NCBI RefSeq assembly: GCF_000226095.1
Contig: NC_016475.1
Span: 3,658,001-3,722,000, forward strand
Source: Thermothelomyces thermophilus ATCC 42464
Lineage: Eukaryota > Ascomycota > Sordariomycetes > Sordariales > Chaetomiaceae
Length of the DNA stretch: 64,000 bases
Direction of reading: 5' to 3'
The position numbers and the translations under genes were made by a program. This document shows, in pieces, positions 8,550 to 62,582 of the stretch. The notes beneath the pieces were generated by a model. That model was not told the DNA's origin. It saw nothing but the letters and a program-made list of their open reading frames with translations, and ran no database searches. Position 1 is the stretch's first letter, and each line of letters begins with the position of its first letter.

Positions 8550-11433
<2,884 letters not shown>

Positions 11434-33257: not shown

Positions 33258-35249
33258 TCAGCGGCCAGCCATATCAGCGTCTTGACTGTGTCCGTTCTGC
33301 TCGCTTCTCCTCAGTGCCGCGACCCGAAACCTCTCCAGGCCCGCAGGCTCTTCCAGCTCGATCGACTCCCCCATTGTGACTTCACTTGACGCAGTTTGCG
33401 CCAACGGCGCAGGCGGCGGCTTCGAGGGCTCAGCACCCTCCCAATGTCTAGCCTCCTTCGGCAGCGGCTGCCACCATTGCCCCGTCCGCGCGTGCCACTG
33501 TGCGCTGCAGAGTTCCCAGAGGCGACTCGTCGCCCGCTTGTACGCAAATCGTTCGTCCTCGCCGGTGAACGCGCTTGTATTGCTAAAATCAATCCTTCGG
33601 CCTTGCTCCTTTCCGAAATCCGAGTCCTGGTCTGGGTCGTACTTGGAATTGGAGGACTCGGAGTATGTCGATACATTTGGGCGGAATGGAGACACCTGAT
33701 CCTGGAACACCTCGGCAATCGTCTCAGAGTATGTTGCATCTGTGCCGTCGTCCTCGCTAGTGGCAACCTGCACCGCGTCGAGTTCCGCTGCCCGTGTCCT
33801 TGTCTCGGGGAAGAAAAGATCGTCGGGGCCGGCCTCGGCTCGAATCATTAGCTTGCACCGTGACTCGTAGAGTGCGTCCAGGAGAGTAATGAACCGCCGG
33901 GCCTCGTTCTTCATGGAGAGGCTGAGGACAGGGACGTGGTCAATGATGAAGGTATGATAATTGCATGCCAACGTGATGTAGTCGGCTGGACCCAGCGTGC
34001 CCACGAGCTCGGGGAAGTCCCAGTACGAAACACCATCACGGTGTCGGGGGACGACTAGTTTCCTCCCGTACACTACCAAGGTTGCAGACGACCACTGTCG
34101 GTCTGCACTCGCCAAATGGTCAACATCAAACCCCGTCGCGTGCCGTAGTGCAGCTGCCCATGTCTCTTCCCCATCGGATGGTGAGAAGTACATGGTTGGC
34201 ATCTGAGTTTCTCTCTCTGCTCTGTCCATGGCAAAGCCACTGCTCTCGTTTGTTGTTGTCCCCTGCAATTGGGAAGCGATCCCTGGATCTGAACCAGCAG
34301 CGCACGTAGATCCCGCTAGAAGGGAAGCACGACGCTCCCTCCTTCTCCAGTCCTGCGTCCCCTCCATGTGCCAGAAGTCACACCGCGCTTTCAAAACTTC
34401 TAGAAAGGCGGCAAAGTCGCTAGATCGGCCAAACAGCTCGCCCCTAAATCGGCTCCTGCCAAGACCAAAAACTCGATCGACCAAACCACCAGTGGCCGGC
34501 GGCGAGTAATAGCCTCCCGTTGCCTTTTCAAGCTCCTCGGGCATTCTGTTCGAAGACGCGACGAGGACTCCGCCAAGATGGAAGAAGGCAACAAACAGAT
34601 TGCTCATGATCTTGCTCGCGGCCCTGTCTGGCAGCTGGAACTCGTCCAGGAACAGTATAGGAGATGTCTCCACAAGCTCTTTAGCCATCCACAGCAAAGA
34701 GTGTTCCGGGCTATCAGCGGCCTCACGGGGACGGGACTTTCGAAACTCCTCTAGTCTGGAAAAGATGTGCAGCATGAAGGTATTGAAATGCCACCTCTTT
34801 TTGCGATGGGTCGGCAAACCTTCGGCGAGGAGGTCGAGGAGCATCGACTTTCCCGTGCCGACCTCTCCAGAGAGAAACAACCCTTTCGGAGAATCGACGT
34901 GCAAGGCAGCCTGATAGCTCGTCATGACCCGTGTCAAGGCCAGACTATCCTTCCTTTCGTGACTCTGAAAGAAGCGCGCGAAGAGAGGATTGCGGCGGAT
35001 CGGGTGGGTTGGAGACGCCAGTTCATCCCCATCGTCCTTGCCTGTCGTCTCAACCACCTTTGCGATCTGCCGGAGCCTGCTCCGGTACTCGTACGAGGGT
35101 GCATAGTCCTTCAGCCTCGCATACACCTTCTGCAGGTGGTGAGCGAGACGGTACTGGGCCGCATCTGGGCAGTACACCCCTGTCGCAATCAAGGATGTGT
35201 ACTTGACGAAAGGGTCGGTGATCGTAACCGAGGTTGCGGCCCGGTTCAT
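33258..35249 (-). CDS. Afg1-family AAA+ ATPase (LACE1/AFG1L-like)
   Basis: 663-aa ATPase of the Afg1 family; members in yeast and animals sit in mitochondria and help remove damaged or unassembled respiratory-chain proteins. Intronless. The opening (KYTSLIATGVYCPDAAQYRLA) and the Walker A loop GEVGTGKSMLLD (about 128-139) are typical, as are Walker B ILFLDEFQLPDR (about 198-209) and VLVASSNRMPEELEK (sensor region). The C-terminal half keeps the family pieces FLEVLKARCDFWHMEGTQDWRR and LACNYHTFIIDHVPVLSLSM. It is longer than the usual about 500 aa through inserted hydrophilic segments (residues about 320-350 and 495-580) and a tail after the last conserved block. No classical presequence is obvious before residue 20, so mitochondrial location is inferred from the family only. 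Divergent from nup133. Confidence 0.9.
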   Translation of the reverse strand: MNRAATSVTITDPFVKYTSLIATGVYCPDAAQYRLAHHLQKVYARLKDYAPSYEYRSRLRQIAKVVETTGKDDGDELASPTHPIRRNPLFARFFQSHERKDSLALTRVMTSYQAALHVDSPKGLFLSGEVGTGKSMLLDLLAEGLPTHRKKRWHFNTFMLHIFSRLEEFRKSRPREAADSPEHSLLWMAKELVETSPILFLDEFQLPDRAASKIMSNLFVAFFHLGGVLVASSNRMPEELEKATGGYYSPPATGGLVDRVFGLGRSRFRGELFGRSSDFAAFLEVLKARCDFWHMEGTQDWRRRERRASLLAGSTCAAGSDPGIASQLQGTTTNESSGFAMDRAERETQMPTMYFSPSDGEETWAAALRHATGFDVDHLASADRQWSSATLVVYGRKLVVPRHRDGVSYWDFPELVGTLGPADYITLACNYHTFIIDHVPVLSLSMKNEARRFITLLDALYESRCKLMIRAEAGPDDLFFPETRTRAAELDAVQVATSEDDGTDATYSETIAEVFQDQVSPFRPNVSTYSESSNSKYDPDQDSDFGKEQGRRIDFSNTSAFTGEDERFAYKRATSRLWELCSAQWHARTGQWWQPLPKEARHWEGAEPSKPPPAPLAQTASSEVTMGESIELEEPAGLERFRVAALRRSEQNGHSQDADMAGR

Positions 35250-36196
35250 TATGATGGAAACTATCCTTCGAAAAGATCCAAGCTCAGGAAAAGAATCATA
35301 AAAAGACAGAGGAATGATGTTGCCGCATAACGTAACTGTTTCGAAGAGAAGGACATCCGGAGATTGGGAACGACGCCCCTCGGTTGCTTGAATAAACTAG
35401 GTATATCAATCGTGCGCTGGTGTTGTTAGTGTTGCAGTTGAGTTATATCGTCACAGCACCGAGGAAAAAAAAGGATACCGAAAATGGCCGCCCAGAGGAT
35501 GATGGCCACGCTGGGAGATCTTTTGAAAAGGGCCTCAGCTTGCTTAGCAAGAGAGGCGCGGTGCCATTGCAGGAACATGAAGGGCCTTTCAATAATGCAA
35601 GAAAGCTTTTTGGTCCGTAACGGAGGTAAACGATGCAAATTGGAAGTTACTACAGACGTACATACAATGCACAAGCTGCACAAAGTCGAGCTCGAAACCT
35701 GGGCCAAGCAATGGGCCCTGATCGAGATCGAAACCAAAAGGGGTCCAGGTACGGCATGTGCATGCGCCAGCAAGGCCAGTTGTTTGTGGGTCCCGCCGTA
35801 TGGGGCTGCTCAATTAACTAGAGGCTAACGTTCGCGCGTGGAAAGAACTGGCAAGCTGGGCTCCACGGCCTTTCAGCTCCAGCCAGTGGCAGCCCCGGAT
35901 TTTTTGCCCAAAGTCAACACAGGCCAATCGACGGAAGCTTCGTCACTCATGCTTCTGCCGGCCTTGACAAGCCTTGACAGGAACCACTTCATTCTCAGAC
36001 CTTTCGCCCTCTCGCTTCTTGAGCGCCTTCCCTTCGCTGTTGACCGGCCCCTCATCCATCTTTTTCACCATTTGCATTTTTGGTGTTGCTTGGCTGGCGA
36101 TGATTTACTGACATCGCGGTTTTTGGTCCTTTGCTCGACATCTCGAAGTCGCGCCGACCGCACTACCAAGCGACTCCATCAGAACGACCGCGAAAA
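35250..36196. promoter_or_regulatory. Shared upstream region of afg1 and nup133
   Basis: 947 bp between divergent starts. Open frames here (for example 35484-35828 plus) have no recognisable domain and overlap frames on the other strand. No clear binding consensus was found. Confidence 0.35.
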
Positions 36197-39100
36197 ATGT
36201 TTTCTTCGGCGCTGCAGGAAGGCGGGCCTGCCAAAGGTACACGGAGCAGCCGCCGCCGACAGCGCACCTCCGAACCATCCTCCCAGCAGCAGCCAAAAGC
36301 GAAGCGCCAGAGGGTACCCCCAGCTGAGACGTCGTCTGCCAATCCGGATCCGCAGCCCGATATGTACGAAGTCAAGCCTGACAAGATTGATCTGCATGCG
36401 ACCAAACGGGACGGTGTCGAGACTGTTGCTCCGCCGCGTAAGGAGCTCAGCGTGCGATCCAAGAAACCCAAACCAGGCGAGAGGAGCACCAAGGGTGACG
36501 GAAGCATTGTCCTAGTTCGTTCTCCTGCTTCGGCCCTCGACGCGACGTGCGCCTTGAGCTAACCCCCTGTGCTTCTAGACAACAAACAATGCGTTTACGG
36601 TGAGCAAGTTGCCGGCGCTACCAGACAGACTCCGGGCAGACGCGCAAAGTAAGGACAAGGCATTCCTGATGCCCAAGGGCGGACTGCTGTGTAGACAAGA
36701 TTTGCTAAACTCTTTCAAAGATCGGCAGCATGGCGTTGTCGACTCGACTACCGGCTACGCTTTGAGCCTCACCCACACCCACGCCTTCGTCTGGCCCTAT
36801 ACCTCGACAACTTCATCACCCGAAACCTTTATATTCACCCTCCCGTATCCTTCGAAGCATGCTTCCGACCCTCTCCCACTCGGATCCCTTGTTACCCCAT
36901 CAACCTCTTCAGATGAACCAGGCTTGGTGATCGTCATGCCTATGAGCGGCAAAGTTGCCTATTGGGAGTCGATTTCTAGCGCAGCCACGCTCGACTTCAT
37001 CCGCCAACAACGGAGCGGTGTCGAAGATTCAATATCCGGGATGTATTCAGGCGAGCATGTCACGCAGATCGTGAACGCCGGGTCGGCCGGATTTGTGTTG
37101 GTTTTCAGCAGTGGACGGTTGGCATACTTGAGCGTGAGGGACGCACACGGACGACCTGGAATCACAGTCCAGTTCCTCCGGAGCGGCCTGGGCGGGAGCG
37201 CATTGGGTTTTTTCGGAACCATCCGTCACGCCCTTAGCTCAGCAGCCTTCCGCGGTCAGATTGCTGCCGCCCGGACTAGCCCTGGTTCCAAGGTCGGGGA
37301 GAGGGTGGTGGTCGCGGCGACGTCCAAGGGACGGTTGCACTCTTGGAAGATCCACCGCGGCGGCCATCACGAACTTCTATCCGACTCCGATATCCGAGAC
37401 AGATTGGTCGAGGCCATCCACGAAGCGGACCCATCCGTCAGCAACTTCCCTCAGGACTCGTTCGAGGTGCTCGACTTCACTCTGGTTCCAAGGGGCCTAG
37501 AGCAAAAATACGTCAATGCCAGCCGATTGAGCGAAGCTTTGACTCATGAAGAAGAGTCTTTGCAACATGCTTTGCTTCTTGCTTCGTTTTCAAGACAGCA
37601 TCGGTCTCGGTACTCGCTGGTTGAGGTGATTTTAACGCCCCAAGGCCCCCGAATCGGCATGGTCCGGCCGGTGGTCTCATACACCAGCTCTGTCAGATCT
37701 GGGGCCCCAGAGAGACCTCGCATCTACCTACCGCGGCCTGGTCTTATCGCCTTCCTTGTCTTCGATAGGGCGGTCGTAGTTGCCTCTATGATTGCGCCGC
37801 CGGACTCTCCCGACGCGCAGTTGCAAGAGGATAACCACATCTTACCGCACTCCTTCGAGGACGTGGTAGACTTCAGAGATGAGGAGAAGCTTCAGGTTGT
37901 CGGTTCTGGTGTCGAGGAGCCCAGTGGGAATGGGCACCCTCAAGACGACTTGCGGCCGCATCGTCACCGAACCAAAAATCCCACGGTAGTGCTCCTTCTT
38001 CAAGGAGTTGGGACCGTTAGGATTGCGGTCTCCGACATCGACCGTTTTGCTAGCGACACACCGCCGGAGGTCACTGCGAAAAGCAAGCTGGAGCAGGCGG
38101 TGTTCTTTGGAGTCAAAGATGACAACCCGCTAGTGTTTCAGGGCAGGAGAGATCTTCCCTTCTCCAGCCAGGAAATTGGAAACGCGGCCATCGAATTGAG
38201 CCACGAAATTGTGGGCTCAAAGACACCTTTTATCGCGAATCTGCCGGCCTCCCTCGAGAACAACATGAAGAGCAGGGTCGTCTACCTAGATGGTCTGATT
38301 GCCTACCTGAACTCGCTCAAGATAGACCTGGACATTCGCACCCGGTGGATGCTGCTGTACAATGCCGAGAAAATGGCAGTTGCGACCTGGATATGGCAGA
38401 AGCATGAACAATTTCTTGCGGAACGCCCCAAGGGAGAGAAGAAGACACTGATCTCCGAGACAGCGGTCTATATCAACGAGCAGCAGAAGACGGAGCTCAA
38501 CCCGGCCGTCGGTCAGGTGGATCCCGTGCGTCACTGGTTTATTAACGACGTATGGAGACTGGATATCTTCGTCGCTTGGGCTTACCAGATCATCAAATAT
38601 CACTTCACCGAGCGGCTAGCGGATGAGGCCGGCATCAACCGGTTAGTATGGGAGGCCGTTACGGTGAACAACGGAGCTCTCTTTGAGGCCCGTCAGTTCC
38701 GGCTCAACAGAGCGAGGCAATACGGCGTCGACCCAAGCGACATCGCAGGCGGCAATGCTATTCCTGAACCCTGGACAGCGACCTATTTCATCACGAATAA
38801 CCTCAAGCGACTGGTCGAGTTCTGTTACCAATGGCTTGATAGGTACTCGACACAAACTCCCGATGACGCGCCGATCGACACCCGCCTCCTCGATTCCATC
38901 CGCCATCTCCTACCTTCGTTAACGAGCCAGTACCTCACGTCCCTCGCCGAGTTCTCCAGCTGGGCCGCGTTAAGCGACGATGCACAGGCCCAGGAGCGGG
39001 GCAAAACCTACCAGCAGATCTTCCAAGAAGATGTGTACACGAAGATCCTGAGGCTAAAGGACTTCAACTTGTGGGAAGAAGCCATTGACCTTGCAAAAGA

Positions 39101-40563
39101 GTACAAGGCATTCGACTCGCTTGCGGAGGTAGTGGTGCAGCAAATCTTGTCCTTGGAGCAACGCGCGGCTGAGCCAGGCACCACCGAGAGTGCGGCACAA
39201 GAAAGCCTCGCTCTTGCCAAGCTCAAGAAGCAGAAGATGGGCCGTATGTTTGATGAGTACGAGGAGAGTTTTGCGTTTCGCGCATACGAGGTTCTTCTCG
39301 AGAGCAGCGGAGTCCAGGCGGTGCTGGATTTTCCTTACGACAGGAACGGCTACGCGACCAAATTTCTCCGGACGAAGCCAGAATTGGCCAAAATCTCGTG
39401 GATCAACGATGTGGAGAGAGAGAAAGACATCGACCACGCTGCCGAGACGCTGCTAGACCTGGGCCTCACCCGCGAACAGCAGGTTTGGAACAAGAAGATT
39501 GAGCTCAGTTTGGGCAAGCTGGCCTTGCTCGCCGAAGAAGCTGAACAAGCCGTCAACGGTGACGGACTCAGCAGCGCCCCCTCTGAGAATGAGGGGAGAA
39601 ATGGCGTAAGCCTCGAGAAGGTTGAGAACGCGCTCGAACTCATCAAGATCCAGGACGCTCTCTACAGTCAGATCCTGCCTACGATCCAGGAGGGTGTCGA
39701 TGAGTCGGCGGAGGTGGAGTTGGCCGTAAAGGAACATGGAATTCTGATCCCAAAGAGGCAGAAGGCGCTTCATCATATCTTCGATGATGCTATGGCACGT
39801 CTCCTCAGGCACGAGGCTCTGCAGCCACATACACTCATCGATCTGCTCACCTTGGCGTCCCTTCCCTCTAGCCATTACGACACTATCGGCGACCAGTTCT
39901 ATCTTGCCCTTAAGGTTGCCCAGTACGGCCTGAAGGGCGAAGAGCGCGCCGATGCCGAGCGGCTGATCTGGCGGCGGTGCTTTGCACGTGATGACTGGAA
40001 GCGCGTCAACGAGACAAACGAGAAGGGGGATCTCGATCAGCTGGCCACTGTGGGCGAGACGGCCGCCTACCACACCCTATTCGCCGTCGTCGACGAGCGT
40101 AAGTCTTTCCAACTCCGCAGTCCATACCTTCTAAAGCATAGCCACCTTCTAACCCCTTCCGCGCATGACAGAACATTCCAACCCGGAGTTCCGCCCGTTT
40201 GTCAAGCCGTCTGAAGCGCTCGGCGTCTTTACCGACAAGCTTGACCGCCGCTTCGACGCCATGGATGACGGTTTCCGTGCCAAGCTGCTCGATGCCATGC
40301 GCTGGGAGGACAAGCAGCTGCGCACGGCCATTGAGAAGTCGCAGCTTGACGCGTGGTACAGGACGACAAGGGAGTGCGCCGAGAAGACGGTTGCCGTCAC
40401 CTATGACAGGCTGACAGCTGCTAAGGCAGCCGCCGTTTCTGCCGAGAGGCGAGCGCAGGCTCTGGATGCACCGGTGCAGGCTAACGGGAGCGCGAAGGGG
40501 CACTTGTTCATTGGGGAACGGACGGACGGCGTGTCAATGCCCGGTGGGTTGTTTGGGTTCTAA
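36197..40563 (+). CDS. Nucleoporin Nup133
   Basis: 1409-aa scaffold nucleoporin of the Nup84/Y-complex of the nuclear pore. Exons 36197-36514, 36579-40098 and 40172-40563. Intron 1 starts GTTCGT (weak donor) and ends TCTAG with a GAGCTAACC branch; it joins GDGSIVL to TTNNAFTVSKLPALPDRLR, the conserved fungal reading. The N-terminus is basic and Ser-rich (RSSRRRQRTSEPSSQQQPK). A beta-propeller follows (about 115-560; HTHAFVWPY, GKVAYWES, GFVLVFSSGRLAYLSV, SKGRLHSWKIHRG), then a helical solenoid (about 600-1400) with VRHWFINDVWRLDIFVAWAY and FRAYEVLLESSGVQAVLDF, and a last exon ending FGF. The length fits filamentous-fungal Nup133. Confidence 0.92.
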
Positions 40564-47444: not shown

Positions 47445-48012
47445 CTTTATCAATGGCTGGCAAGTATCACCTCGCGCTGTCGGCGACGGAGGGAGGGTCA
47501 CGGCGGAGTGTGTGTTGAGTTGAGATGCAGGGAATTCGGCAGGTTCCCGCTGGCAACAGCAACACTTGGGGCTCTCCCTATCGCGACCCTAGCTAACGCC
47601 AGTGAAGCTGCCACGTTCAAGGGAAAATTGGGCCCAGGGATTGGTCAGGTCACGTGTAGGCTTGTAAAGATGGGTCTTGGCACCCAGTTCGGGCATGGAT
47701 GGACAGGTAGTTGCTCCGTAGCGGGAAACTTTTTGGCGGTGTTTGCTGCCAGAATCCACAAGTTCAAATCTCAACAGTGCACTACTAAAGTTTATCGAAC
47801 TGCATCCGCCCAGATAACGCTCCATCGAGTCACCCTCAAAATACGAATAAACTGGCCTCGCTTCATGTGTAAATACCGCAAATAAGTGTACTGAATCAAG
47901 TCCGGTCCAGAAAGGCAGAATTCGCTGGCTGCGACTGCGACGAGTCGACCCACACACCTTGGCAGCGCTCCCGCCCGCAGCGACGCGACGTGCGCAACAC
48001 CACCCCACCAGC
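47445..48012. promoter_or_regulatory. Shared upstream region of p24 and swc4
   Basis: 568 bp between divergent starts. AT-rich patches at about 47755-47885 probably mark the nucleosome-free core. No named site identified. Confidence 0.35.
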
Positions 48013-50067
48013 ATGACTTCCCACGATGTCCGCGACGTGCTAAACCTTCCCTCCGACCAATCTACAGCCCCTCGCCCGTCCAAAAAACAAAGGACTAGTG
48101 CTCCGCGACCAAACCTGAAGGGACTTGCGCGCGAAGTTCAAAATCTTGGCGGCGACAATCCGATCGCAATCGTTCCCGATGTCTCGTTCTTTAAGAAACG
48201 GCGATTTGCCAGCCGTAAGCCGGCTGCTAGATGGGAACTGAGACCCTTTATAAACTCGGCCCGCAACGATGGCGGCGCGCTAGTTCTTCGACACTGGAAA
48301 CGGAAAACGGACCACGGACCGCCGCCGGAGACCGGGCAGGACGGGGAATCGAGGCCGAGTGAGGAGGCGGCAAACGGGGAGAAGAAGGACGACCAGCCAG
48401 AAGACTCGGCGTTTGCCAAGTTCAATGTGCGCGTCTCGGTTCCGCAGTACAACGATGACCAATACCAAGCCAACCTTCAGAGCGATGACTGGACAAAGGA
48501 GGAAACAGACTACCTGCTGGAGCTGGCGAGGGAATATGACTTGCGTTGGCCAATCATCTGGGACCGGTACGAGTTCGCGCCGAAACCACCTGAGGGAGAA
48601 GAGGCCGACGGGACGAGCACGGCCGTGGTGACTGCACCCAAACCGCGAACGATGGAGGACCTTAAGGCACGCTACTACGAGGTCGCCGCGAAGATGATGG
48701 CAGTCCAGAAGCCGGCGCAGTACATGACGAGACCGGAGTTTGAGCTCTACGAGATGATGCTGAATTTCAATCCCGAGCAGGAGCGCAAGCGGAAAGAGTT
48801 TGCGCTCAACACGATGGCTCGCTCTAAGGACGAGGCTCGGGAAGAGGAATCCCTCCTGCTCGAGATCAAGCGCATCCTCGCGCGCACAGAGCGCTTTAAC
48901 GAGGAGCGCCGCGAGCTCTACAACCGCCTCGACTACCCGGCCACCGATTCAGACATTAACTCGTTCAAGTCTTCTGCTGGCCTGCAAGCCCTCCTTCAAA
49001 ACCTCATGTCCACGGACAAGGCGAAAAAGCGCAAGAGCATCCTCGGGCCAAACGGCGAGGGTGCCAGTCCGGGCGGCGCAGCCCCAGGCAGCGCGGCATC
49101 GGAGGGAGGAGCCAGCCACAACCGGCGCGAGAGCATCGCAGCCGCGTCCGCCAACCGCCGCGACTCGGATGCTCGTGCTGGCGGGGCTCGCGGGTCCGCG
49201 GAACCGACCCCGACATCGGGCGCGGCCGCAGCGGGCGCCGGCAACAAAAAGAAGGGCGGGTCATCCGCCGCTGCCGCCCAACCAGAGCGCCGCAAGCTCT
49301 CGGAGCAGGAAGAGAAGATTTACGGAGTGTCGTACCACGACCGACTCGGAAGCGGGCCAACGTTCCGGTATGAGCGCATCAACAAGCTGTACAGCCACAA
49401 GTCGGGCCAGCAGCAGTTGCGCATGACCAACGCCCTTGCCGAGCTCGACGTGCCTCCGCGCCTGATCATGCCCACGGCCGCCGTGACTTCCCAGTTTGAG
49501 GTCCTCTGGGGCGCCGTGGCCGCGCTGGTTGATGCGCGCAAGTTGAGCGATAAGCTGGACGCGGAGATCAAGTTGGAGGAGGCAAAGGCGGCGGAGAGAG
49601 CGAAAGCGAAGGAGGCAGCAAAGATGGATGGGAAAGGTGCGGATGGGAAGGGTGCGGATGGGAAGGGTGCGGATGGGAAGGGTGCGGATGGCGGCGAAAA
49701 GGAAAAAGAAGATGCAAAGGCGGCTGAAGGGCAGCAACAACAACAACAACAACAGCAGCAGCAGCAGCAGCAAAAGCAGGAGCAGCAAAACCAGGAACAG
49801 GAGCAGCAGCAGCAGGAACAGCAGCAGGAACAACAACAGGAACAGCAGCAGGAACAACGACAGGAGAAGCAGCCGCAACAACCCTCTAATGGGGTTGAAG
49901 GCAGTGAGCAAGCAGATGGCATCAAGGAGGAGCCGGGCACTGAAAAAGATGAGGCTGCTGCCGCCGGCGCCGGCGCGAGACCGGGCAGCAGTGGTGGTGC
50001 GCATAAACGGAGCGCGAGTGTGCTGAGCGCCGCAAGCGATAAAAGCGCTAAACGGCAGAAGAAGTAG
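48013..50067 (+). CDS. SWR1/NuA4 subunit Swc4 (Eaf2, DMAP1-like)
   Basis: 684-aa subunit shared by the SWR1 chromatin-remodelling complex (H2A.Z exchange) and the NuA4 acetyltransferase. Intronless. The start MTSHDVRDVLNLPSDQ is the conserved fungal opening; an upstream in-frame Met at 47959 is less likely. N-terminal block (WELRPFINSARNDGGALVLR), SANT/Myb-like domain (about 155-190; WTKEETDYLLELAREYDLRW), a helical block with FELYEMMLNFNPEQERKRKE, and the C-terminal DMAP1-type block (GPTFRYERINKLYSHKSGQQ ... MTNALAELDVPPRL). The last about 150 residues are low complexity: four GADGK-type units, then a long Gln/Glu-rich stretch. Some regions (Ala/Gly/Ser, about 355-420) are also insert-like compared with the core. 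Confidence 0.93.
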   Translation: MTSHDVRDVLNLPSDQSTAPRPSKKQRTSAPRPNLKGLAREVQNLGGDNPIAIVPDVSFFKKRRFASRKPAARWELRPFINSARNDGGALVLRHWKRKTDHGPPPETGQDGESRPSEEAANGEKKDDQPEDSAFAKFNVRVSVPQYNDDQYQANLQSDDWTKEETDYLLELAREYDLRWPIIWDRYEFAPKPPEGEEADGTSTAVVTAPKPRTMEDLKARYYEVAAKMMAVQKPAQYMTRPEFELYEMMLNFNPEQERKRKEFALNTMARSKDEAREEESLLLEIKRILARTERFNEERRELYNRLDYPATDSDINSFKSSAGLQALLQNLMSTDKAKKRKSILGPNGEGASPGGAAPGSAASEGGASHNRRESIAAASANRRDSDARAGGARGSAEPTPTSGAAAAGAGNKKKGGSSAAAAQPERRKLSEQEEKIYGVSYHDRLGSGPTFRYERINKLYSHKSGQQQLRMTNALAELDVPPRLIMPTAAVTSQFEVLWGAVAALVDARKLSDKLDAEIKLEEAKAAERAKAKEAAKMDGKGADGKGADGKGADGKGADGGEKEKEDAKAAEGQQQQQQQQQQQQQQKQEQQNQEQEQQQQEQQQEQQQEQQQEQRQEKQPQQPSNGVEGSEQADGIKEEPGTEKDEAAAAGAGARPGSSGGAHKRSASVLSAASDKSAKRQKK
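49627..49686 (+). repeat. Four 15-bp tandem units in swc4
   Basis: Four near-identical copies of GATGGGAAGGGTGCG (the first differs by one base), coding for DGKGA repeated, then a broken fifth copy. Followed at about 49732-49875 by CAA/CAG-rich sequence coding for Gln-rich protein. Confidence 0.9.
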
Positions 50068-51225
50068 AAGGAAGGGGGGGTGGTGGGGAGGGGGAGGGGT
50101 TTAATGATTTGCAATGTGAAGACAGTTTACTACTGCCTTACGAAGTGAGGTTCAGCATACAAGTCGAAGTCATGCTTCTGCCCCAACTCTCTACTAATAT
50201 CGAATGCCAGCCTAAGAAGCCAGGCATTGCCCGTGGAGGAAGTCCCGCCATCAGTAACCAGCGTAAGGTTTTACAAACACTCGACTCACTCCGCACAGGT
50301 TAACAGATTCTGTGCTCTTTCAGATGCTTTTCATTCACTGTGTTTATTAGTCACTCAAGTGGTTCGTTTAGCTGTACATACCGAATTGTAAAGGCCAGGT
50401 ACTGATTAATAAGTGGAGAGGATGGGTGAGCTATATTGGCGATTAACAGCACCCGGTGCCCGATTTCTAGGGGATCAAGCAAGACGTAAAGGGATCTAAG
50501 TATGACATCATTTAAGCTTTAAGACAAAAAAAAGTACGAGATGATTGTTAAGTCAGTAAATGCACGGTATAAAAGCTAACCCGAGCGGAACAGCTTTAAC
50601 CAGCACGTCATGCTGTATCAACTCTTAAAACTACAACGCTAAATTACTTCCAAGATAAACTCCGGGCGTAGGCTTTTTGTTACAGTATTTGACTGTCTGT
50701 GGGTCGAATCTGACCAACCCACCAACAGGGATGACGAGCCAGGGTCAACATGTATTTAGACAGCTTCTCTGAGTGCCTCTGGCACTTGGAACAATTAACA
50801 CTTTTATCACCTACTTCTGCAGATCGTAACAGTTGGTCTAGGAGTGCCGCCCACGGCGCGAACACCGCTGTGGTGTCGTACCTTTGCAGCCTTTCTGAGC
50901 TGTACTGATTGCAGCCACCGAGCTGTAGCACTTTGAGCCGGTCTGCTGCCTATTTATTATGCGAGGCAAGAAGCATTCCGTGCTTCATACAGCCTGTAGC
51001 ATGCGGGTAGGACACTAGAACAGCAGCAACGGCCTTGTTCAAGTTGATGGAGAGCAGGATCACTTAACGTGCCAAGGGCCCTCTCCAGCTCAGTACATAC
51101 ATAGGTACCTTGTTACCCTACAGTTTCAGGTCCAGTTCCAGCCATCCCCTACGCGCCACCTCTTCTTGTTAGCAACCTCGAATAACTACCTGCTTGATAA
51201 CATCCACTGTGACACTCCGTCAAAG
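50068..51225. other. AT-richer intergenic region, possible decayed repeat
   Basis: 1.16 kb. From about 50300 to 50690 the base composition is clearly AT-richer, with many TA steps, than the genes on either side, a look that repeat-induced point mutation can give. A minus-strand frame at 50680-50931 (83 codons, with NCSKCQRHS) is not recognised. No gene supported. Confidence 0.45.
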
Positions 51226-52035
51226 ATGGCGATTCAAATCCTCTCAGACTTACATCTAGAGGCGCCCAAAGCATACGATGTGTTTGAAATAGAGCCCAAG
51301 GCGCCGCACCTGGCTTTGCTCGGCGACATTGGCAATGTTGTGGCTCACAAGGACGACTTTCTCGGGTTTCTGACCCGACAGCTGCAGCGGTTCCGAACCG
51401 TGATGCTCGTGCCCGGGAATCATGAAGCATACCATTCCAGCTGGCCCGAAACCCTCAGCGTTCTTCATGCCTTTGAAAACGATTCGAGAGCGCGCAACGA
51501 CTCTTCGCTGGGCGAGTTTGTCCTGCTCGACCGCCGCGTCCTGCGGCTACCAGACTCTGACATCGTGGTCTTGGGATGCAGCCTCTTCTCCTACGTCCCG
51601 CCAGAGAGTCGCATGGCTGTTAGTATGGGCATGAACGACTTTTTTCTAACCGACGGATGGGACGTGGACGCGCACAACGAGACGCACAGGCGGGATCTCT
51701 CGTGGCTAAACGCTCAGGTCGCCGACCTCGAGCGTTCCGGCGTCAACAAGATCATCATGTTGTCGCACTGGAGCCCAACCATGGATGCGCGAGCAATCGA
51801 CCCGAAGCACGCCGGCAGCCGCGTCACGAGTGCCTTTTCGACCGACCTGTCTAGGGAGAAATGCTTCAGGAGTGCCGGCGTCAGACTTTGGGCGTTTGGA
51901 CATACGCATTACAATTGCGACTTTGTTGCTGACCGGGAGGATGGTGCCGGCCCATTGAGATTGGTGTCGAACCAGAGGGGATACTACTTTGCTCAGAGCA
52001 AGGGTTTCGACAGTGGAAAGACGATCGAGGTATGA
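51226..52035 (+). CDS. Calcineurin-like metallophosphoesterase
   Basis: 269-aa predicted soluble dimetal phosphoesterase; the substrate is unknown. Intronless. Metal-binding motifs appear in the usual order: ILSDLHLE (D-x-H) at the start, LLGDIGN (G-D), VPGNHEAYH (G-N-H-E), LSHWSPTMD (H) about two-thirds along and AFGHTHYNCDF (G-H-x-H) near the end. No signal peptide or membrane span. Start: the Met directly before the IQILSDLHLE beta strand; an upstream in-frame Met at 51166 would add 20 non-conserved residues. This small-phosphoesterase type is widespread in filamentous fungi. It is isolated, with 1.2 kb of empty DNA on the left and 8 kb on the right. Confidence 0.88.
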   Translation: MAIQILSDLHLEAPKAYDVFEIEPKAPHLALLGDIGNVVAHKDDFLGFLTRQLQRFRTVMLVPGNHEAYHSSWPETLSVLHAFENDSRARNDSSLGEFVLLDRRVLRLPDSDIVVLGCSLFSYVPPESRMAVSMGMNDFFLTDGWDVDAHNETHRRDLSWLNAQVADLERSGVNKIIMLSHWSPTMDARAIDPKHAGSRVTSAFSTDLSREKCFRSAGVRLWAFGHTHYNCDFVADREDGAGPLRLVSNQRGYYFAQSKGFDSGKTIEV

Positions 52036-55000
52036 TGAAAGAAAAGAGAAGAACGATAAGCTGTTCAGGATGCGCCTGCTTGCTTGTTGCCAAAGAGAAC
52101 GAGGGAGCTTTCGAGCTCGAAGGCAGCAGCTCTAATAGCAGAATCTATTCGCTTAATTATACTATTAGTGTATTCCGATATAATGTTGCTAGTACTGTAC
52201 CTGGGTAAGTGATTGCATCGAACAACTGAGACATTACAGGGGGCAAGGCACGCAGAACCAGACAAGGGACGAGATTATTGCAGCGCGTGAGCGCTTGCGC
52301 CGTGCTTTGTAAACAATCATCCGGATTGGCGAACTTCATTGGCTTGTACACAGTTAGTTCTCGGGATTATTTCCTTTTCTTTTCATATCGTTTCTTTGTT
52401 TCTGTCTTTATGGGCTGCGATTTGCGGCGATGATGGACGGCACTCGGCGGAGACCGAGGAGGCAATGGCCTCAAAACGACATAAGGCGCCTGAGCTGCCT
52501 TGAGAGCTCGCGCGAGAGACGCGGCGAACGTATGAGAAAGTTTTGGTATGCTAGGCGCTCGATTAACGTTGTTCGGTACAAGGCAGGCCAGCTAGGTATC
52601 TGTGAGGGCTTGAGCCCGCTCGTCTAGTAATAGGCATCCGACTGACTTACAAAGGCGGTTTAGAGCCAGAATTCAACGAATATCAGAGCACATGTTTATG
52701 AGATTGCCATCCACTTCTTGCCCGGCTCACAGCGAGCACCGCCCGAGTTGGCCGATGTGTCTCGCAATGAGTCAATCTTCCCATCCGGTGTGGTTTGACT
52801 TATCCGGACTCCCCTCCCTTATGAGCCGTTCTGACCAACCTGTTTGCCAATGGGCGACTAGGCGGCGACATGGCTAACAACACCACAACGGCAGGACTCA
52901 ACATTGCTATCTCCAGGTCGCAACTGAACCCACATGACTCACTCACTCGCCCGCCCAGCCACCTTGGAAGCGCAGTAAGCGATAGAGGAAGGGTAGTCAA
53001 CCTCTAAACCGTTGCACGCATGGAGGCAGCCCATACCGGCGACTGGCCGACCATGATTAGTTCCATATCGGTATCACCTACCTACTGGTTGAGGCGCCGA
53101 GGCGCGTTTGGTACGTCAACTGATAGCCCGAAAGACCGATGCGTCATTCTATAACCAAGGTAAGGTTGCTCTACCCTAGATAGGCACCGATATGCCATTC
53201 AAATCCCAGCTTGGCCTCGGTGACGCGCCGAATACTTTGCAGTTTTTGGGCGGCTGGCTGGTGATGGGTTGATCTATAGAGGAGACTGCGCGGCTAAGCT
53301 ATGTTCCTCCTCTGTGCGCTTCGGATTGATCAGTAGCCGTTTTGGATAAAATTAGAAGGGATCATGCGGCAATCAAGATGACTTCTGGGATTGTTGCCCG
53401 GCTGAACCATTAGGCACGTGGTGTTTCGCAGGTCAATGACACGCATGATACCATGTCCTCGGAAACGATTCGCAAGAGCAGACGGGGAATTTATTTCACC
53501 AACGGACAGAAAAGTTATAAAAAGAACACGGGAAAGCTTCCTCGCCAATAGACGGCTGGCGTTTCGTGTTTCTTTGTGAGACGTGGGCGGCTCCATGCGG
53601 TCCGGGCGCGTTCGAAGAGGGAGGCCGAGGGAAGCCAGGTCGTCGAGAGTGGACCCAAACCATATGCAGGTACCGCGCGCAGATCCGGCCACGCGAAGGA
53701 GACAGAAGTACCGGTACCTGGACCTTTTAATCGCGGTACCGGGTCCCCGTGCGGCAGATCTAGATCTGCTCATGCCGGTGATAGGAGGGTGATACGGCCC
53801 TTTGCCGCAGGAGTCCAGGGTCGTCGATGCGTGACGGCGGCAAGGGTGTGAGGGACACCCGGGTTGCTGGTTCATGCCAGGGACGGATGTAAAGCGGCCC
53901 GCCTTGAGAGGGTATGACGTGACGGCGTGCTAACAACCGGGGAAAAAAATAGGCTGGAAGGGGGGGGGGGCGAGACTCGCTGCTCGCCGGCATGCAGGCG
54001 CCACCGCGTGTTGCCGCCTGCGGATGCCGTAGCCGCTGACCTGTAGCGTAGTGGATAGTAGCATTTGTATGTACCTTCTCTCGTACTCCAGTCAGATAGT
54101 GAATTTTAGATCCGCACCCGCCTTGCGTGCACTTGGCGAAATGGTGCTGCATGACTTTCATGCCTGGGAAAAGGGGATAGGGGGGTGTAGAAGGTCGCTC
54201 ATGGATCCCCTAAGACCATCGACTCTCTTCCTCTCGAAGGAGGCCATGAATGATGTCACCGTAGGGCTGGCTGGCTAACCGGCGGTGAATTGCGGTGTTT
54301 CCAAACAATGTTTCTTCCTGAGGTCGAATATCGTGGGCAAAATGGTCATCCAATGTCATGATGGTGGTTGAGAAGGCCGAAACGGTGTTGAGGAACGAGC
54401 CAATAGAATGGGCCAAAATGGGGCCTCGAAGCGCTGCTGGGGGTTTGTAAGCGCCGGCCTGGCGCCTAACAGCGCGGGACCTCGATACGGTGAGCGCCCA
54501 GCGGCGACCTAGCGCCTACTTTGTAAGTGTGCACTCGTGCGATTGTGCATCCAATGCCGGCGGCGAAGACCACAGGCTCGCGGACTATCCGGTCGGCAGC
54601 ATGGTATCGCCATCTCTCCAGACCGAGATGGCGGTCCAATTTTCTGGTTGTGAGCGGCCGTCGCTGCCAAGTGGCAAATCTTTTTTTGGCATCAAGAGAA
54701 CCTCATCCACAGATCACTCACGCCAACCCCGTTCAGACTGTTTGACACGGGGAAAGAAGATAAAAATAAACGCGCTTTTGAACCGAAACTGGACGGTGAA
54801 GTGCATAAACATCTGCCTGGTGTCGATTGCAGGTATGTCGAATTGTAAGAATTCATGTCTAGCGTGCATTTCGTCCGTCCTGCAAATGTCACCATTTCCG
54901 AAAGTGTTGGATTGCTCTCCGTCCCAGCAGCTCCATGTTGGGTCAACGGGGGTTTCAATTGTGGCGGCGACCTGTTTTGCAATCGTGATGGGCTTTGTCT

Positions 55001-58000
55001 TTGCATTGACCGCGTTCCCGGCTCCCGGTTGATTCAACCAGACAAGGCATGACACTCGTTTACTCGGCTGACGGTAAGTGGAAATGATTCTTGAATTGCT
55101 GGCGAGAGTGTACTAGTATACGAGTGTATCTGATGAGGCCCAAGCAAGAACTGGCTGTTGAAATTTCCGTTCGCATCAAAGCTGGATGTTGCCTACCCCT
55201 GCAGTAAGCTGTTCCTGCAAGACGGCGCGGGTCGCTAGCAAAGAATAGAATGCTTTCCCGGCCGTTTCCGTCTTCCTATTGTTAGCATAGACCCTGTCAT
55301 GGGCGGAACTAATCCGTACACTGTACTGTACAAAGGTGCTTCCATGATTGCGGTAACCTCGGCTAGTGTGTGTTTCTATGGGGCTTCGCCGTCTTAGGGG
55401 CCTGGTCACCGACCTTCAATGCACACCGCTGCCCGTTGGCAATCCCGTAGTGCTCAACGACTGGTCCTTCGGCTACATTTCACATACATTGCTCGTTCCG
55501 GGCGATGATACGATGCCCTGAGCCGCTAAGGCGAATGTTGAAACCTCTTCCAAGTCGCTTGACTCTTCTGGCGGGTGTCGTGTCGTCAATGCTGGGACGA
55601 TGGGTGTGCGCTGCAAGCCCGACCCGACCGCGCTTGCTAACCTGGGCAGGTGGAGGGTTCCCCACCAATCGAATGAATTCCGTCTCGCGCGAAACGAAAA
55701 AGCACGTTGCGGCAAGGGCATCCAAGCGCAGGCACGAATCGCGATAGCCGCCTCCGTCCGGCATGCTCAAGTACACTCGCGGTTGAGTCCAGAATCGCAC
55801 ACAATTCATCTCGGCGGATATGACTGGCGACAGAGGCTTCATCTGGCTTCTCCATCAAGAATGCTCTTCACGCAGAGCAGAGACTTGTCCTCCCGTCCTC
55901 TTGCTTCCAGGGCCGCGCCGCGGCTGCACCATACTAGTAATTGCTCGCACTATCGTCGCCGTTCGTACCCCCTCATAGGTCGCCATGCCGTTTCCGCTGG
56001 CCAATCGGGCTTCCAGGCCCACACAACTCGCCTGTCCAATCAGACCGCGTGTTCTGGAAATGGAGACCACTGGCAACAGGTTTAGCGGGTCAGCCGTGCA
56101 TGCGTCCGTTCCATAGTGTAGTGTAAGACGTTGTGGGAGTACATTCGTTTGTGGCCAAGGTTTTCACACAGTCGCGACCGCGAAGAACCGACAGAAGGTC
56201 ACCAAGTTCTGCCACATGCCAACAGCGAATACCTCACAAGGCAACATGCATCGAGGGTTTGCAAAGATTGGTATCGATTCTGTTTCTAAATTTAACTCGC
56301 TTGAAATCATTTGCTTTCGAACACTTGCGGTTGCGCTTCATTCGGGTCATGACAGACTCGGGAGTCGGGTTGGCTGAGTGTGGGGATTGATTACACCCAG
56401 TGCTAAGACGCAAGTACGAGGCGCGGGAGAGCGCAGGCAGAAACACGCCGGTATTTTGCCCGTCACGCGGGTGTGACATTTTTGTTGCTAACCCATGTTC
56501 GCTGGCCACACGAACAATGTCGGTACTTGGCCGAATCCGGACATGCGACGGCAGTGCTGGCAGCTGGTCGGTATGCAGTTTCGGCAGCCCGTTTGTGATG
56601 ACCAAGAGGCAACTTCTCGATATGACCACTTGAGAATCGACCCACTTCCCGAGGTTGTTGGCTTGCTTCTCGTCTTAGTGTAGGGGATTGGGCTTCCGCG
56701 CCTCCTCTTAAGTTAGTTGACCACGAGTGAAAGCAGCGAGTTGTGTGTAGCCATTGGCCATTGTCTAAATCCCAGAACTCGCATCCCCCCACCCCCCCCC
56801 TTTTAATCACTCCACAGGCCGGCATATCTTCTTCTGCTTTCTGGGGTTCATCAGTCTCCCTACCCAACCTCTGTATTTTGTTACACTCTCTGGCGGGGTG
56901 CGTGCGCGCCGAAGACAATGGCGATGTGGTACTACAACAACCGTTGGGGCGCCATGGATGCTTTCGTAGCGCGCGTGTCGCCCTGTCGCTTCGAGTTCTG
57001 CAAGGGACCCTATGTCGCTTCCTAGGACATGCCTCCAATCCCAGTCATTGCGGAGTCAAAGGGCGTGCTTAGCATCCAGATGGGGACAGAACGGTGTACG
57101 CCAGGTCCGGACATTACTCCGAAATCCATCTGTTATCCACACCTGTCGTTACCGTTTCATCATACCCGACACCCACTTTGTGCAACAAGGGGAAGATCCG
57201 CTAGGGGCCTTGCAACCAGCGGTCATACTGCAACAGATTTTTGATGGGAGTTAGGTCGGCTTGGGATAGGACTACAACTCTACAAGTGCTTCCGCCAGAA
57301 TAAACATGTTTGTTCCACAACGCGCAGTAAGCCTGGTGTTTTCTCTCCAAGGATTGTGCTCGCCAGCTTTGTCGCGCTCATGGTTGGCAACGCGACTGTG
57401 TGGCTTCAGGGTTAGGTAGCTCTGTTGCGCAAAAATACTTACCTTGGTATAGTTCACCCCACTTTATGAGGTAACTGCACCGCCTGAGCATATTCCGCGT
57501 CCTTGATGTGTAATCCGTACATACCTGTACACTAGTTAGAGCCTGGACCAGCACGAAGCCGCGGCTGTCTACAGAGTGCTGCGTAAGTACGTACTGTGTA
57601 AGGTATGGACAGTCCAGTCCATGCTCGGCTCGGCAGTGCTCGTCGCAGCGCTACGCAGTAGTGGCGTACTCCGTGCGTATCATCTTTCATTTGACAGTGT
57701 CCCTTTCAACCCCAGACTGGCCCGTGCAAGGTTCAATCCCTGCGCAACTGTGCCGACGGAGCTAGGCTTGTGCATGCAAGTGCCTCTCACTCGCCCGCTC
57801 GTTTGAGGGCGGAAGTCACAGAACCTTCCGCACCCGGGCTCTTCCCAAAACGGAGCACTTGGTATCCCACACCATGAGTGCACCCCATGGCAGTTACCAC
57901 CCCACCCTGGCGCATAGTGTAACCAACGGAAAGGCAGGGTCGGGGATTGAGGGCCGGTACTTAGGTACTGTACCCCTCTACAATGTACTGGTACAATGCC

Positions 58001-60245
58001 CAAGTTCCCGTTATCTCTCTTGGTTCTCTGCGGCGTGCCGCTGGGCTGCTCACTGAGGCATCGAGTTGTACGTCCGTATGTAATTCGCAATCCGTACACA
58101 TGATGTGATTGACAGGGCTCTGTCGTTAACGTTACTCCTCGTCTCCGTGGCAAACGCCAGATTGGATGGGCAGCGGCAGTGTAATAACTTCCATTGCTCG
58201 TTCTCACTCTCTCGTGCACCAGGTAGTTAGGCCGCTTCTTGGAGGTACCCTGTTCCTCCTAATTTTGAGACAACGTACTGCGTAAGCTCTGCTAGCCTAA
58301 GGTCGGGGAGACTTCCTCTTTCTCGCACCGTCCAACTCCTGTGTTGCCCGCCATAACGAACCCCGGGGGTCTCCGTATGCAATTCAGGCACACCTCGCGG
58401 CAACTTTGAACTCTGGCCCACATGGTCACTGACCGGGAACCCCTGCCGGCCAGATCTCGCCGCTTCCCATCCAGCCTTCTGCCACCCGCGGGCGTCTGTG
58501 CGCTGCGACTCTCGACGGGCGGGACATTTTTCTGGCGCTTGTTTGGCTTACGAGCCACTCGATGGGCGCCGTGTCCCTGATTACCTCTTTCTTCTCTCTT
58601 CAACCCCCCTCCACTCCGCACTGCATCCTGCGAGACAGGCCACGAGGAGAGTCTGTCAAGGAAAGAAAAGAAAAGAGGAATATACCTGTCCGCTTAGTGC
58701 GCCGAGTTAGCGACCGCCTCTGGAGGATTCCTTGATCACTTGGTGGTGGCACCGAGAAACCCGCTATCCGTCCGGCCTCCCGCCCCGTTTCCGACAGGCG
58801 CAGCATACCGTTAATCGCGCGTTAAAGAGAGCCAAGCGCCAGCATACTCGGCTACCGCGAAAAAGAAAGCTGGGAGGTTTCTCGATTCAATTTTTCGACA
58901 ACGACGGTCGCAGCATCGACCTCGTTTTACAGAATCCCCTACGCACTTGTTTTTCGAGGTCGCTCGGACTTTCTCACTCTTTTCCGCCCCCGTTCGCTTG
59001 GCGCATTGGTAGCAGGCTGCCCGCCGAGGAGAACGACGGACAAAAAAAGGCGAATGCCCACATTTGGGATTTGCGCACTGATCATCGTGCCTCCTCGCCT
59101 ACCAGCGACGACGACAAGGTCCATGTCCCTCTGACGTGTCACAACAGTCACGATCGAAACGCCGCGTTTTTGATCGGGCCATCGCAAAGCAATCTTCCCC
59201 CCCCCCCCCCCCCTCTCCTTCGTTACGGGATAGCAGGCAACAGCAACAATAGCAGCAACAGCGCACCTTTAGCGGCGGGGAGGTCATCGTGGCGGTTTTC
59301 TTGAGGCCTTTGCGGCGGCTGCGGTTGTTTCCTGGCCGCTACCCGAACCCGGCACCCGGTCGTTTGCACACCCGGGCCGCAGATTTGCGGTCGCTTTTGT
59401 CACTGCATCCTGGATCCGCCTCCACAACGCGACCGACACAAGCCTCCACCTTTCGTTTTGCTTTATTCCGCTCACGTTGGGGGTTTAGCAGACCCCAGTC
59501 CGCCGACCAACACAAAAACGCACTTTTCCGCGCCAGGACCGGAGTTGAATCCGCCTACGCTACGGAGTAAAACGGACCCCAAAACAAGCCCACGCCAGCA
59601 CCCCGGGCGAGTCCAGGGCTGGAAGTTACGGACGCACGAGCGCCGACCTGTCTCCACTTTCCTTCAGCAGTGCATCACAGCGCCAGCGCCTTCCTGCTGC
59701 AGCACAGCTCCTTCTGCTGCAGCCTGACCACGCACGTTCTTCCCAGCGTTCCAGCACAAACGCGGACCAAGAATCGGGACCTGTAATTCATTGGGCAACG
59801 GGTTTCTGCGATTCCACCATTTCCAAGCCCTAACCCAGCGCTCACGAGGAACACTCTCGGGTTGCGACCAGGAAAGAGCATACCCTGCTCGCTTTGGACT
59901 GGCTCCCGGATCCCGGAAGCCGACTCGCTTAGATCCGCCTTATTCAGACTCTCTCATTTATCTGCCGCACCCGGCGCTCCTCTGCTGAGGGCGCTTTCAT
60001 TGCGCGACTCTACTGACACCAACCCAGCCTGTCGCTGGCATCCGCGCCAATCCGCAACGACTGTCTCGCACCTGCAGACTGGTCGCTCGGTTTCCTAGTT
60101 TGCGGCAGCCTGGATTCCGTCCCCGGATCTCCAAGCTCTTAGACCCTCGTGCAGCTTCACCCTCTGCTCGCTACATCATTAAGACGCATTCGAAGCACGA
60201 CAAGAAACATTTAAAGACGCCCTGCAGAGGCGGCTGTGCGTGGAG
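52036..60245. other. 8.2-kb gene-poor region
   Basis: Longest stretch without a supported gene. All open frames are under about 190 codons, overlap on both strands, and show no domain. Features seen: palindrome-rich sequence at 53690-53775 (TACCGGTACC, CAGATCTAGATCTG), duplicated GCGCC-rich words at 54450-54515, motif copies at 57668 and 59562, GTAC-rich words around 57500-58100, and a C17 run at 59197-59213. The last 1.5 kb is pyrimidine-rich and is probably the promoter and leader of the gene starting at 60246. The rest could be regulatory DNA, non-coding RNA or decayed repeats. Confidence 0.55.
53690..53775. repeat. Cluster of short palindromes
   Basis: Contains TACCGGTACC and CGGTACCGGG (related inverted words about 30 bp apart), GGACC/GGTCC arms, and CAGATCTAGATCTG, a perfect 14-bp palindrome. 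It could be a regulatory site cluster or a remnant of an inverted-repeat element. Confidence 0.4.
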
Positions 60246-62582
60246 ATGTCGACATTTACTGCCCTGAATGGGGGCTCGCCAAAGTCCGCCGAAGGAGTCA
60301 ACGGGGCGGCGGATGGGGATCGAGCAAACAGGCAGTCACCAAGCGTCGAATCAAGGTCTGCTGGAGGGTACTACGGCCAGAGAGATCGGGAACGAGATAG
60401 CCGTGACGCGCAGGAGCGTCGGGGCAGCACCAACCACGATAGGCTTCCGTTTCCTGGTGCTGCCACTCTTCCGGATACCGAGGGCTCCCACAAGCGCAAA
60501 AGGTCTTTGTCGGATTCACCAAGGAGGGAGCGCCCACCATCTCCGCCTGTGAGAGCTGGAGCAACTGAGCGGGTGGAGCGGGGGGAACGATCTGAGCAGT
60601 ATGCACCTCAGAGCCACCAGTCGGAATCACGTGAAGAGCGGACAACACCGCAGAGGGAGGAGTATCGAGGCTCACAAAGGGAGGAAGCGCGGGAGAGTGA
60701 GAGGCACTGGCGCGCTGACCGGGCGCGTGAGGACCGCACCTCGAGCTATGAGACTCCTTACTCGGCCGGTCCGGTTTCAGCTCAGTCGGAGGAACCAGCC
60801 AGCGATCTGGCACGGAGGGCGACCAGTCACGGCGACGAGGAACACAGCCCGGATGGCGAAGATCGCAACCTGTTTTCCGGCCAGTACACATCCGAGCAGC
60901 GCAGGGACGGCATCGTTCAATCGGACCCCAAGAAAAGGAAGCGCAACTTCAGCAACCGGACCAAGACGGGCTGCCTGACATGCAGAAAACGAAAGAAGAA
61001 GTGCGATGAGAAGAAGCCCGAATGTACGCCTTGATTCTTCTCCTCCCCCTCCCCCCCCCCCTTCCCAATTCCCTGATACACCGCACCTGTTCACACGCAT
61101 GGCCGCGTTTTGCGGCCGCATCTGGCCCGTCCGGCAGGCTGACAGCACGCACAGGCAACAATTGCTACAAGGGTGGTTTTGTTTGCGCTGGGTATCCCCC
61201 ACAGAGGGGAGCTTGGACCAATAAGCCTGAGAGCAAGCCCGCGCAGGTCAACATCGAGTCGAAGGATCCGAACTATGTGCCTCCGGGAGCGTACGGAATG
61301 CCCCAGCAACCACCCCCGTACAGCGGCAGCCAACAGCCTCCGCTGGGTCAGCAACCGAAACGTGACTCCCTGCCATATAACCGCGGCCAGCCCACGCTCC
61401 GCATCACGCCGCCTCAAGGCCGCCCTTTGCAGACAGACGACGACAGGCTGACAGCATCGACCATGCCGAGCTCTATCATCAGCCCCGACAACAAGCTCTC
61501 GGCACTGTCAGGGTATACGACGTCGGCATCGGCGAACGTGTTCCCTACCCCGGTGAGCGCCGCCGCGGGCTCTGCCTTTTCAGATCGAACGCCGAAGGAG
61601 TACCAGCGCGTGCCGCCGCTTCACGACCTTACGCGGACGGAGCCGGATCAGCAACATCCTCCCCCTCCCCCTCCCCCTCCTCAGAGCACAACTTTGACGC
61701 ACCCGCCCTTCAGTAGTATGCTGCATGGGGGTAGGACGTCGACTCCGCCAGCCCCGCCATCTACCCTGTCCTCCTCCCAGCCTCCTTCCGGAGGTGTTCA
61801 GGCGACGGCACAAGCCGCGCTTTCACACACGCAGTTCCCCTCGGACAGGCCGCGCCGGCAGAAGGAGGAGATGCTGAACGGCAGACCGTACTATCCCTTT
61901 GACAAGGAGCTGGTGCTCGAGCGGGAGCGGTGCAACGCGGCGTGCTGGCGGTTCAATAACTCGACCAACCCGAACCTCGGTGTTTCTCCCGCTGAGCGGG
62001 CACGGCTGTTCCGTGACATATTACACCCGCGTGAGGGCATCCAGTTATCGCCCACCATGGTGTCGCCCGTCACGCACGCCGGGCGCGTGGGCGAGAACGC
62101 GACGGTTGAGGCGCCCTTTAACTGCGACTACGGCTATAATATTCACATCGGCAACAACGTCTCGATCGGCCGCAACTGCCTCATCAACGACGTCTGCGAA
62201 GTCAGCATTGGGAACAACGTCATCATCAGCCCCAATGTCTGTATTTACACGGGTACCTGCAGCACCAACCCTCGCTATCGCAAAGGCAATCAGGGTACGC
62301 AGTACGGCAAGCCCGTTATCATTGAGGATGACGTGTGGATTGCTGCCAACGTGGTCATCCTTCCCGGTGTCAGGATCGGAAAGGGCTCGACTGTTGGCGC
62401 GGGGTCGGTCGTGACGAGGGTATGTCATTCTGCTTGCCTTCCCCCCACTTGTCCTGCCACTCCCAGAAGGCTGGATTCGGGTTTACTGACAATGCTTGCC
62501 TGATATATAGGACGTTGCCACCTGGAGTGTCTACATGGGCTTGAAAGCGGGTCACCGCAGGGGCATTGCCCTTGTCCCCTGA
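60246..62582 (+). CDS. Zn(II)2Cys6 domain fused to maltose O-acetyltransferase-type enzyme
   Basis: 704-aa fusion. Exons 60246-61023, 61155-62419 and 62511-62582, all in phase. Residues 1-240 are disordered, rich in Ser, Arg, Glu and Gln. A basic stretch ([14 protein letters not shown]) leads into a fungal zinc cluster with spacing CX2CX6CX6CX2CX6C (Cys243, 246, 253, 260, 263, 270); intron 1 splits Cys260, and the splice [18 protein letters not shown] confirms it. A Pro/Gln/Ser linker (about 280-495) contains a Pro run. Then a Mac domain (about 495-555; [20 protein letters not shown]) and a left-handed beta-helix of hexapeptide repeats (about 560-700; [39 protein letters not shown]) as in maltose/galactoside acetyltransferases, which transfer acetyl from acetyl-CoA to sugars. 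The catalytic His normally lies at a G-H-D-H or Y-x-H type turn of the helix; which His serves here is not certain. The C-terminus ends soon after the last repeat. Confidence 0.88.

Follow-up and report, generated by a model that had tools for sequence, protein, structure and literature searches.

A zinc-cluster protein of Thermothelomyces thermophilus, a probable orthologue of Neurospora FF-7, with cysteine in place of the catalytic histidine of its acetyltransferase-like domain

Gene structure and domain organization

The segment 60246–62582 on the forward strand of the window (the whole stretch of 64,000 nucleotides of Thermothelomyces thermophilus DNA that was analysed) holds one open three-exon gene encoding a protein of 704 residues (Table 1). 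Exon 1 contributes 778 coding bases, the last of them opening codon 260, and among the open splice combinations listed only splicing at 61024/61154 rebuilds the six-cysteine zinc cluster; removal of intron 2 at 62420/62510 lets the last coil of the β-helix continue. Near the 3' end of both introns lies CTGAC, which we take to be a branch-site-like motif. A sequence-only reading of this locus had proposed the same three exons, and splice and reading-frame analysis bears out its coordinates and junctions as well as its view that the zinc cluster is reassembled across the first intron.

Pfam supports the domain names given in that reading, namely a Zn2Cys6 cluster fused to a Mac cap and hexapeptide repeats. 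Zn_clus covers residues 241–277 (E = 3.2e-9) and Hexapep covers residues 647–681 (E = 8.4e-14), both above their curated cut-offs. The zinc cluster thus lies mid-protein and the helix of the maltose/galactoside acetyltransferase (MAT/GAT) type lies at the C-terminus, an order that fits the description of the FF-7 family in PMC8079791. The NCBIfam equivalog model for maltose O-acetyltransferase (NF007499), a bacterial model against which the exon 2 part alone was scored, gave 105.5 bits and did not reach its cut-off of 314. The insertion that separates the Mac cap from the helix is a candidate partner-binding loop.

Table 1. Features of the gene, with positions in the window and residue numbers of the encoded protein
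Feature	Position	Strand	Content or comparison
Exon 1	60246..61023	+	Predicted disordered basic/RE-rich N-terminus; cysteines 1–3 of the zinc cluster
FF-7 phosphopeptide stretch, residues 116–141	60591..60668	+	Sordaria macrospora SMAC_06177 peptides aligned (PMC7550108)
Zn2Cys6 cluster, C243–C270	60972..61186	+	C-x2-C-x6-C-x6-C-x2-C-x6-C, split by intron 1
Intron 1	61024..61154	+	131 nt, GT..AG, phase 1; splits the C260 codon (fourth cysteine of the cluster)
Exon 2	61155..62419	+	Two bases of the Cys4 codon, cysteines 5–6, proline/glutamine-rich linker, Mac cap, most of the β-helix
Mac capping motif, residues 499–549	61871..62023	+	Pfam PF12464, E = 1.4e-13, above curated cut-off
Insertion of about 19 residues (550–568)	62024..62080	+	Between Mac cap and helix; gap in 80/80 listed bacterial relatives
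Left-handed β-helix, MAT/GAT type, residues 572–681	62090..62419	+	Pfam Hexapep, PDB sequence matches, model, Foldseek; completed by exon 3
Gly598 (GGC)	62168..62170	+	Bacterial Asn: 80/80 and 47/48; 124/125 distinct genes
Cys628 (TGC)	62258..62260	+	Bacterial catalytic His: 80/80 and 48/48; 125/125 distinct genes
Trp654, acetyl-CoA-site Trp, kept	62336..62338	+	Trp in 80/80 and 48/48; 125 distinct genes
Intron 2	62420..62510	+	91 nt, GT..AG
Exon 3	62511..62582	+	Last β-helix coil, C-terminal tail (Lys693), stop

The single open exon 2 encodes the last two cluster cysteines together with the acetyltransferase domain as far as residue 681. Because these two parts share one uninterrupted exon, the fusion is not an artefact of annotation, a product of chance or a misjoining, and the union of a Zn2Cys6 cluster, a Mac cap and a hexapeptide β-helix in one gene is confirmed. 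Nothing spoke for a pair of distinct genes or for a wrongly joined gene model; either is extremely improbable, and both are rejected on this shared exon together with the Botrytis cinerea gene, for which PMC8079791 describes the same architecture and intron position.

Upstream of the gene, the roughly 8 kb from 52032 to 60183 contain no stop-to-stop frame of at least 220 residues and are preceded by a Metallophos-type frame (51019–52032). Other nearby frames are those of ordinary fungal housekeeping genes, with family matches to a nucleoporin (Nup133-like; 36579–40211), a HECT/WW ubiquitin ligase (8719–10761), an AFG1-type ATPase (33261–35396), a DAMP1-like SANT protein (47851–50064), a WD40 protein (16707–18689) and the exosome component RRP4 (26105–27268).

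Relationship to FF-7 and its orthologues

Domain order, intron position and a peptide alignment make this gene, most probably, an orthologue of Neurospora crassa FF-7 (also FF7; NCU04001), Botrytis Bcin04g03490 and Fusarium graminearum GzZC087 (FGSG_10069). Bcin04g03490 is described as a GAL4-like cluster followed by a linker and an LbH_MAT_GAT domain, an arrangement shared by the gene product; the BLAST analysis in that paper confines proteins of this type to Pezizomycotina and its text names ff-7 and FGSG_10069 as orthologues (PMC8079791). The coordinates printed there for the Botrytis gene (start 1253972, intron from 1252942) place, by our calculation, 1030 coding bases before the intron, which therefore falls after the first base of codon 344; given that the second cysteine is C330, codon 344 is that of the fourth cysteine. 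Intron 1 matches the Botrytis intron in both codon and phase. The two genes differ in the length of their products (754 residues in Botrytis versus 704 here), in the 5'-UTR intron of the Botrytis gene and in the absence, from the Botrytis model as described, of an intron before the last coil.

Further evidence comes from Sordaria macrospora, in which the FF-7 orthologue SMAC_06177 appears in a STRIPAK phosphoproteome table (PMC7550108). Adjacent FF-7 peptides from this table (26 residues) align with residues 116–141 of the gene product with 14 of 26 positions identical and a local alignment score of 66, which was reached by none of 1000 shuffles of the protein (maximum 48); the phosphosites S147 and S155 fall on S126 and T134, respectively. 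For another Sordaria peptide, TERTPIERPER, the alignment did not rise above chance, 359 of 1000 shuffles reaching its score. GzZC087 and SMAC_06177 are named as FF-7 orthologues and were compared through phenotype rows and peptides only, and the likeness to Neurospora FF-7, a regulator of sexual development that shares the Zn2Cys6 and maltose acetyltransferase-like architecture, is drawn from its published description. A Colletotrichum gene is listed in a table row with a GzZC087 match and the hexapeptide family (PMC4782317).

The sequence-only reading had mentioned similar fusions in other filamentous ascomycetes, and FF-7, Bcin04g03490 and GzZC087 are such fusions; its further statement that no function had been described was wrong, as all three are treated in the literature. 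The fusion and its biology are already published, and the orthologues are linked there to fertility, to transcription induced by light and to virulence.

Fold and catalytic site of the C-terminal domain

In a phmmer search, the solved structures that matched this domain were acetyltransferases of the maltose and galactoside kinds, the lowest E value being 1.8e-30. AlphaFold2 was run on residues 502–681 of exon 2 as a monomer, using the 80 bacterial sequences described below and with the final 23 residues from exon 3 lying outside the modelled region, and gave a mean pLDDT of 89.7 and a pTM of 0.86. The block containing Cys628 averages a pLDDT of 90, the remainder of its loop 73 and the insertion region 62–65. 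Among solved structures the best Foldseek matches to this model are maltose acetyltransferases (2p2o_A, E = 3.6e-12, query TM score 0.82, 38% identity), and the predicted fold of the MAT/GAT type is kept. The Mac cap, the β-helix and the fold are shared with the bacterial O-acetyltransferases Maa, LacA and NodL; these, however, are stand-alone enzymes with a catalytic histidine, whereas the gene product is a zinc-cluster fusion with Cys628, Gly598 and the insertion at 550–568.

Relatives of the acetyltransferase half were found in bacterial sequences. The genome_contigs collection gave 103, of which 80 were listed, all bacterial, with a best segment identity of 48%; a further 455 plasmid records matched, all at less than 60% identity, and viral_contigs gave no match to this half. 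The 80 listed genome_contigs relatives (35–49% identity) form our first comparison set and were retrieved with peptide patterns having some overlap with the region under comparison, so that conservation is inflated at the pattern stretches but not at column 628. The second set comprises 48 loci picked by the Mac cap family alone; three genes are common to both sets, giving 125 distinct bacterial genes.

Cys628 occupies the position of the bacterial catalytic histidine and Gly598 that of a near-invariant asparagine (Table 1). In all five listed PDB alignments, two of which involve near-identical entries, Cys628 stands opposite the histidine of the YTxxHP loop. According to PMC3046976, every crystallized family member carries its catalytic histidine on a loop that juts out of the helix, and those that use acetyl-CoA as donor also share a tryptophan contributed by the neighbouring subunit. 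Both substitutions need two base changes (TGC versus CAY and GGC versus AAY), and a single read error therefore cannot explain either. Asp605 and Arg635 are kept, each being matched in 80/80 and 48/48 bacterial sequences. When positions conserved in at least 76 of the 80 first-set sequences are counted as near-invariant, 22 of 27 are retained and Gly598, Asn604, Cys628, Gln642 and Lys693 are changed. Gln642 is not used as evidence of inactivation because the corresponding glutamate, present in 78/80 of the first set, is found in only 31/48 of the second. Lys693 replaces a proline present in 80/80 of the first set and in 39/48 of the second, the other nine being gaps. Retention of 22 of the 27 positions is more than a decayed enzyme would need, so that ligand binding or an altered chemistry is conceivable.

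The words 'histidine', 'catalytic' and 'active site' are not used in the main texts of the principal FF-7 and Botrytis papers, a count that concerns those texts and not the literature at large. Relative to them, the loss of the catalytic histidine, observed here in one fungal protein, is new. Structure prediction had been suggested in the sequence-only reading as a check on the integrity of the site; the fold and the acetyl-CoA-site tryptophan came through this check and the catalytic histidine did not, which weakens that reading's idea of a DNA-bound acetyltransferase. Its other proposal, a regulator responsive to acetyl-CoA or a sugar, is compatible with these results.

Functional implications

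Loss of Bcin04g03490 in Botrytis abolishes sporulation, sclerotia, the light response and infection, and loss of the orthologue in Neurospora and Fusarium abolishes fruiting bodies (PMC8079791). Loss-of-function alleles in Botrytis comprise C330Y in the zinc cluster and Y633D and G722R in the helix domain (PMC8079791); because changes to a cluster cysteine and to two helix residues all give null phenotypes, both domains are essential in that fungus. By numbering, Y633 and G722 fit Y585 with G674 or Y587 with G676 of the present protein, and also Y585 with G676 if Botrytis lacks a two-residue loop insertion, so we assign neither to a single residue. In Neurospora, FF7 carries a Zn2Cys6 cluster followed by a maltose acetyltransferase-like domain, and co-precipitates weakly and in both directions with the GATA factor SUB1. 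ChIP assigned it 2756 putative sites, spread over 2315 genes and marked by an AACCGC motif; of the 519 light-inducible genes, 192 need FF7 for full expression and are reduced in the deletion strain (PMC4378982). Light-induced nucleosome loss at WCC sites was reported as unimpaired without FF7, and the authors suggested a role in transactivation (PMC4378982). Deletion of ff-7 changes the period by +0.87 h (PMC8495738).

The motif is spelled AACCGC in the Results and AAGCGC in the Discussion of PMC4378982. Self-regulation of the present gene through AACCGC was considered and rejected: the 2 kb upstream contain two copies (both as GCGGTT, at 59292 and 59321), whereas the window contains 46 on its two strands, or about 1.4 per 2 kb, so that there is no enrichment.

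In papers on FF-7 and the Botrytis protein the C-terminal domain is labelled a putative acetyltransferase, and acetylation of chromatin proteins has been proposed for the Botrytis orthologue (PMC8079791). An active enzyme with changed chemistry, for instance with Cys628 serving for histidine, might acetylate chromatin, or proteins of another kind, at the promoters to which the factor binds. Conservation is seen at most residues of the pocket, and missense alleles in the Botrytis domain abolish function (PMC8079791); these alleles fit a defect in catalysis as well as one in folding. Against it, the catalytic histidine and the near-invariant asparagine are both gone, no histidine lies within 37 residues of Cys628 and nucleosome eviction does not need Neurospora FF7 (PMC4378982). 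We regard such an activity as distinctly improbable, and as less likely than a non-catalytic module.

The helix might alternatively bind acetyl-CoA or a sugar without turnover, with occupancy controlling trimer formation or partner binding and thereby coupling carbon status to development. The retained tryptophan (128 of 128 rows, from 125 distinct genes) and the fold kept in the model are consistent with such a sensor, as is the carbon-responsive expression of Neurospora ff-7 through col-26 (PMC8495738). Control of ff-7 expression, however, is silent on ligand binding, and the proline of the bacterial C-terminal loop is lysine in a tail that also differs; we consider a sensor of this kind unlikely.

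The explanation that we favour, and consider probable, is that this FF-7 orthologue is a DNA-bound transactivator in which the β-helix acts as a non-catalytic oligomerizing or partner-surface module lacking a catalytic base. The catalytic-site residues suggest a domain without catalysis, and most likely one that serves as a scaffold or ligand pocket rather than as an acetyltransferase. By analogy with the maltose and galactoside acetyltransferases, homotrimers whose active sites lie between subunits, the β-helix is probably homotrimeric. We infer functional orthology with FF-7, under which the zinc cluster would bind promoter DNA and the β-helix, presumably descended from maltose/galactoside acetyltransferases and devoid of the catalytic base, would oligomerize the factor as a trimer and offer a surface, or a remnant acetyl-CoA or sugar pocket, to partners such as SUB1. 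The outcome would be transactivation of light-regulated and developmental genes.

Tentatively, the whole FF-7 family may consist of pseudo-acetyltransferases, with a fold taken over from the maltose-acetyltransferase lineage that has lost the catalytic base and now serves in trimeric co-activators or sensors of acetyl-CoA or sugar that place three zinc clusters on DNA and join light and metabolic signals to sexual development, although we hold this broader view to be somewhat doubtful. The missing histidine, seen here in a single fungal protein, has a bearing on the acetylation hypothesis in the literature; were it absent throughout the family, the proposal of chromatin acetylation would need replacing, and a major regulator of the light response, fruiting and virulence would represent an enzyme fold that has been converted to regulatory use.
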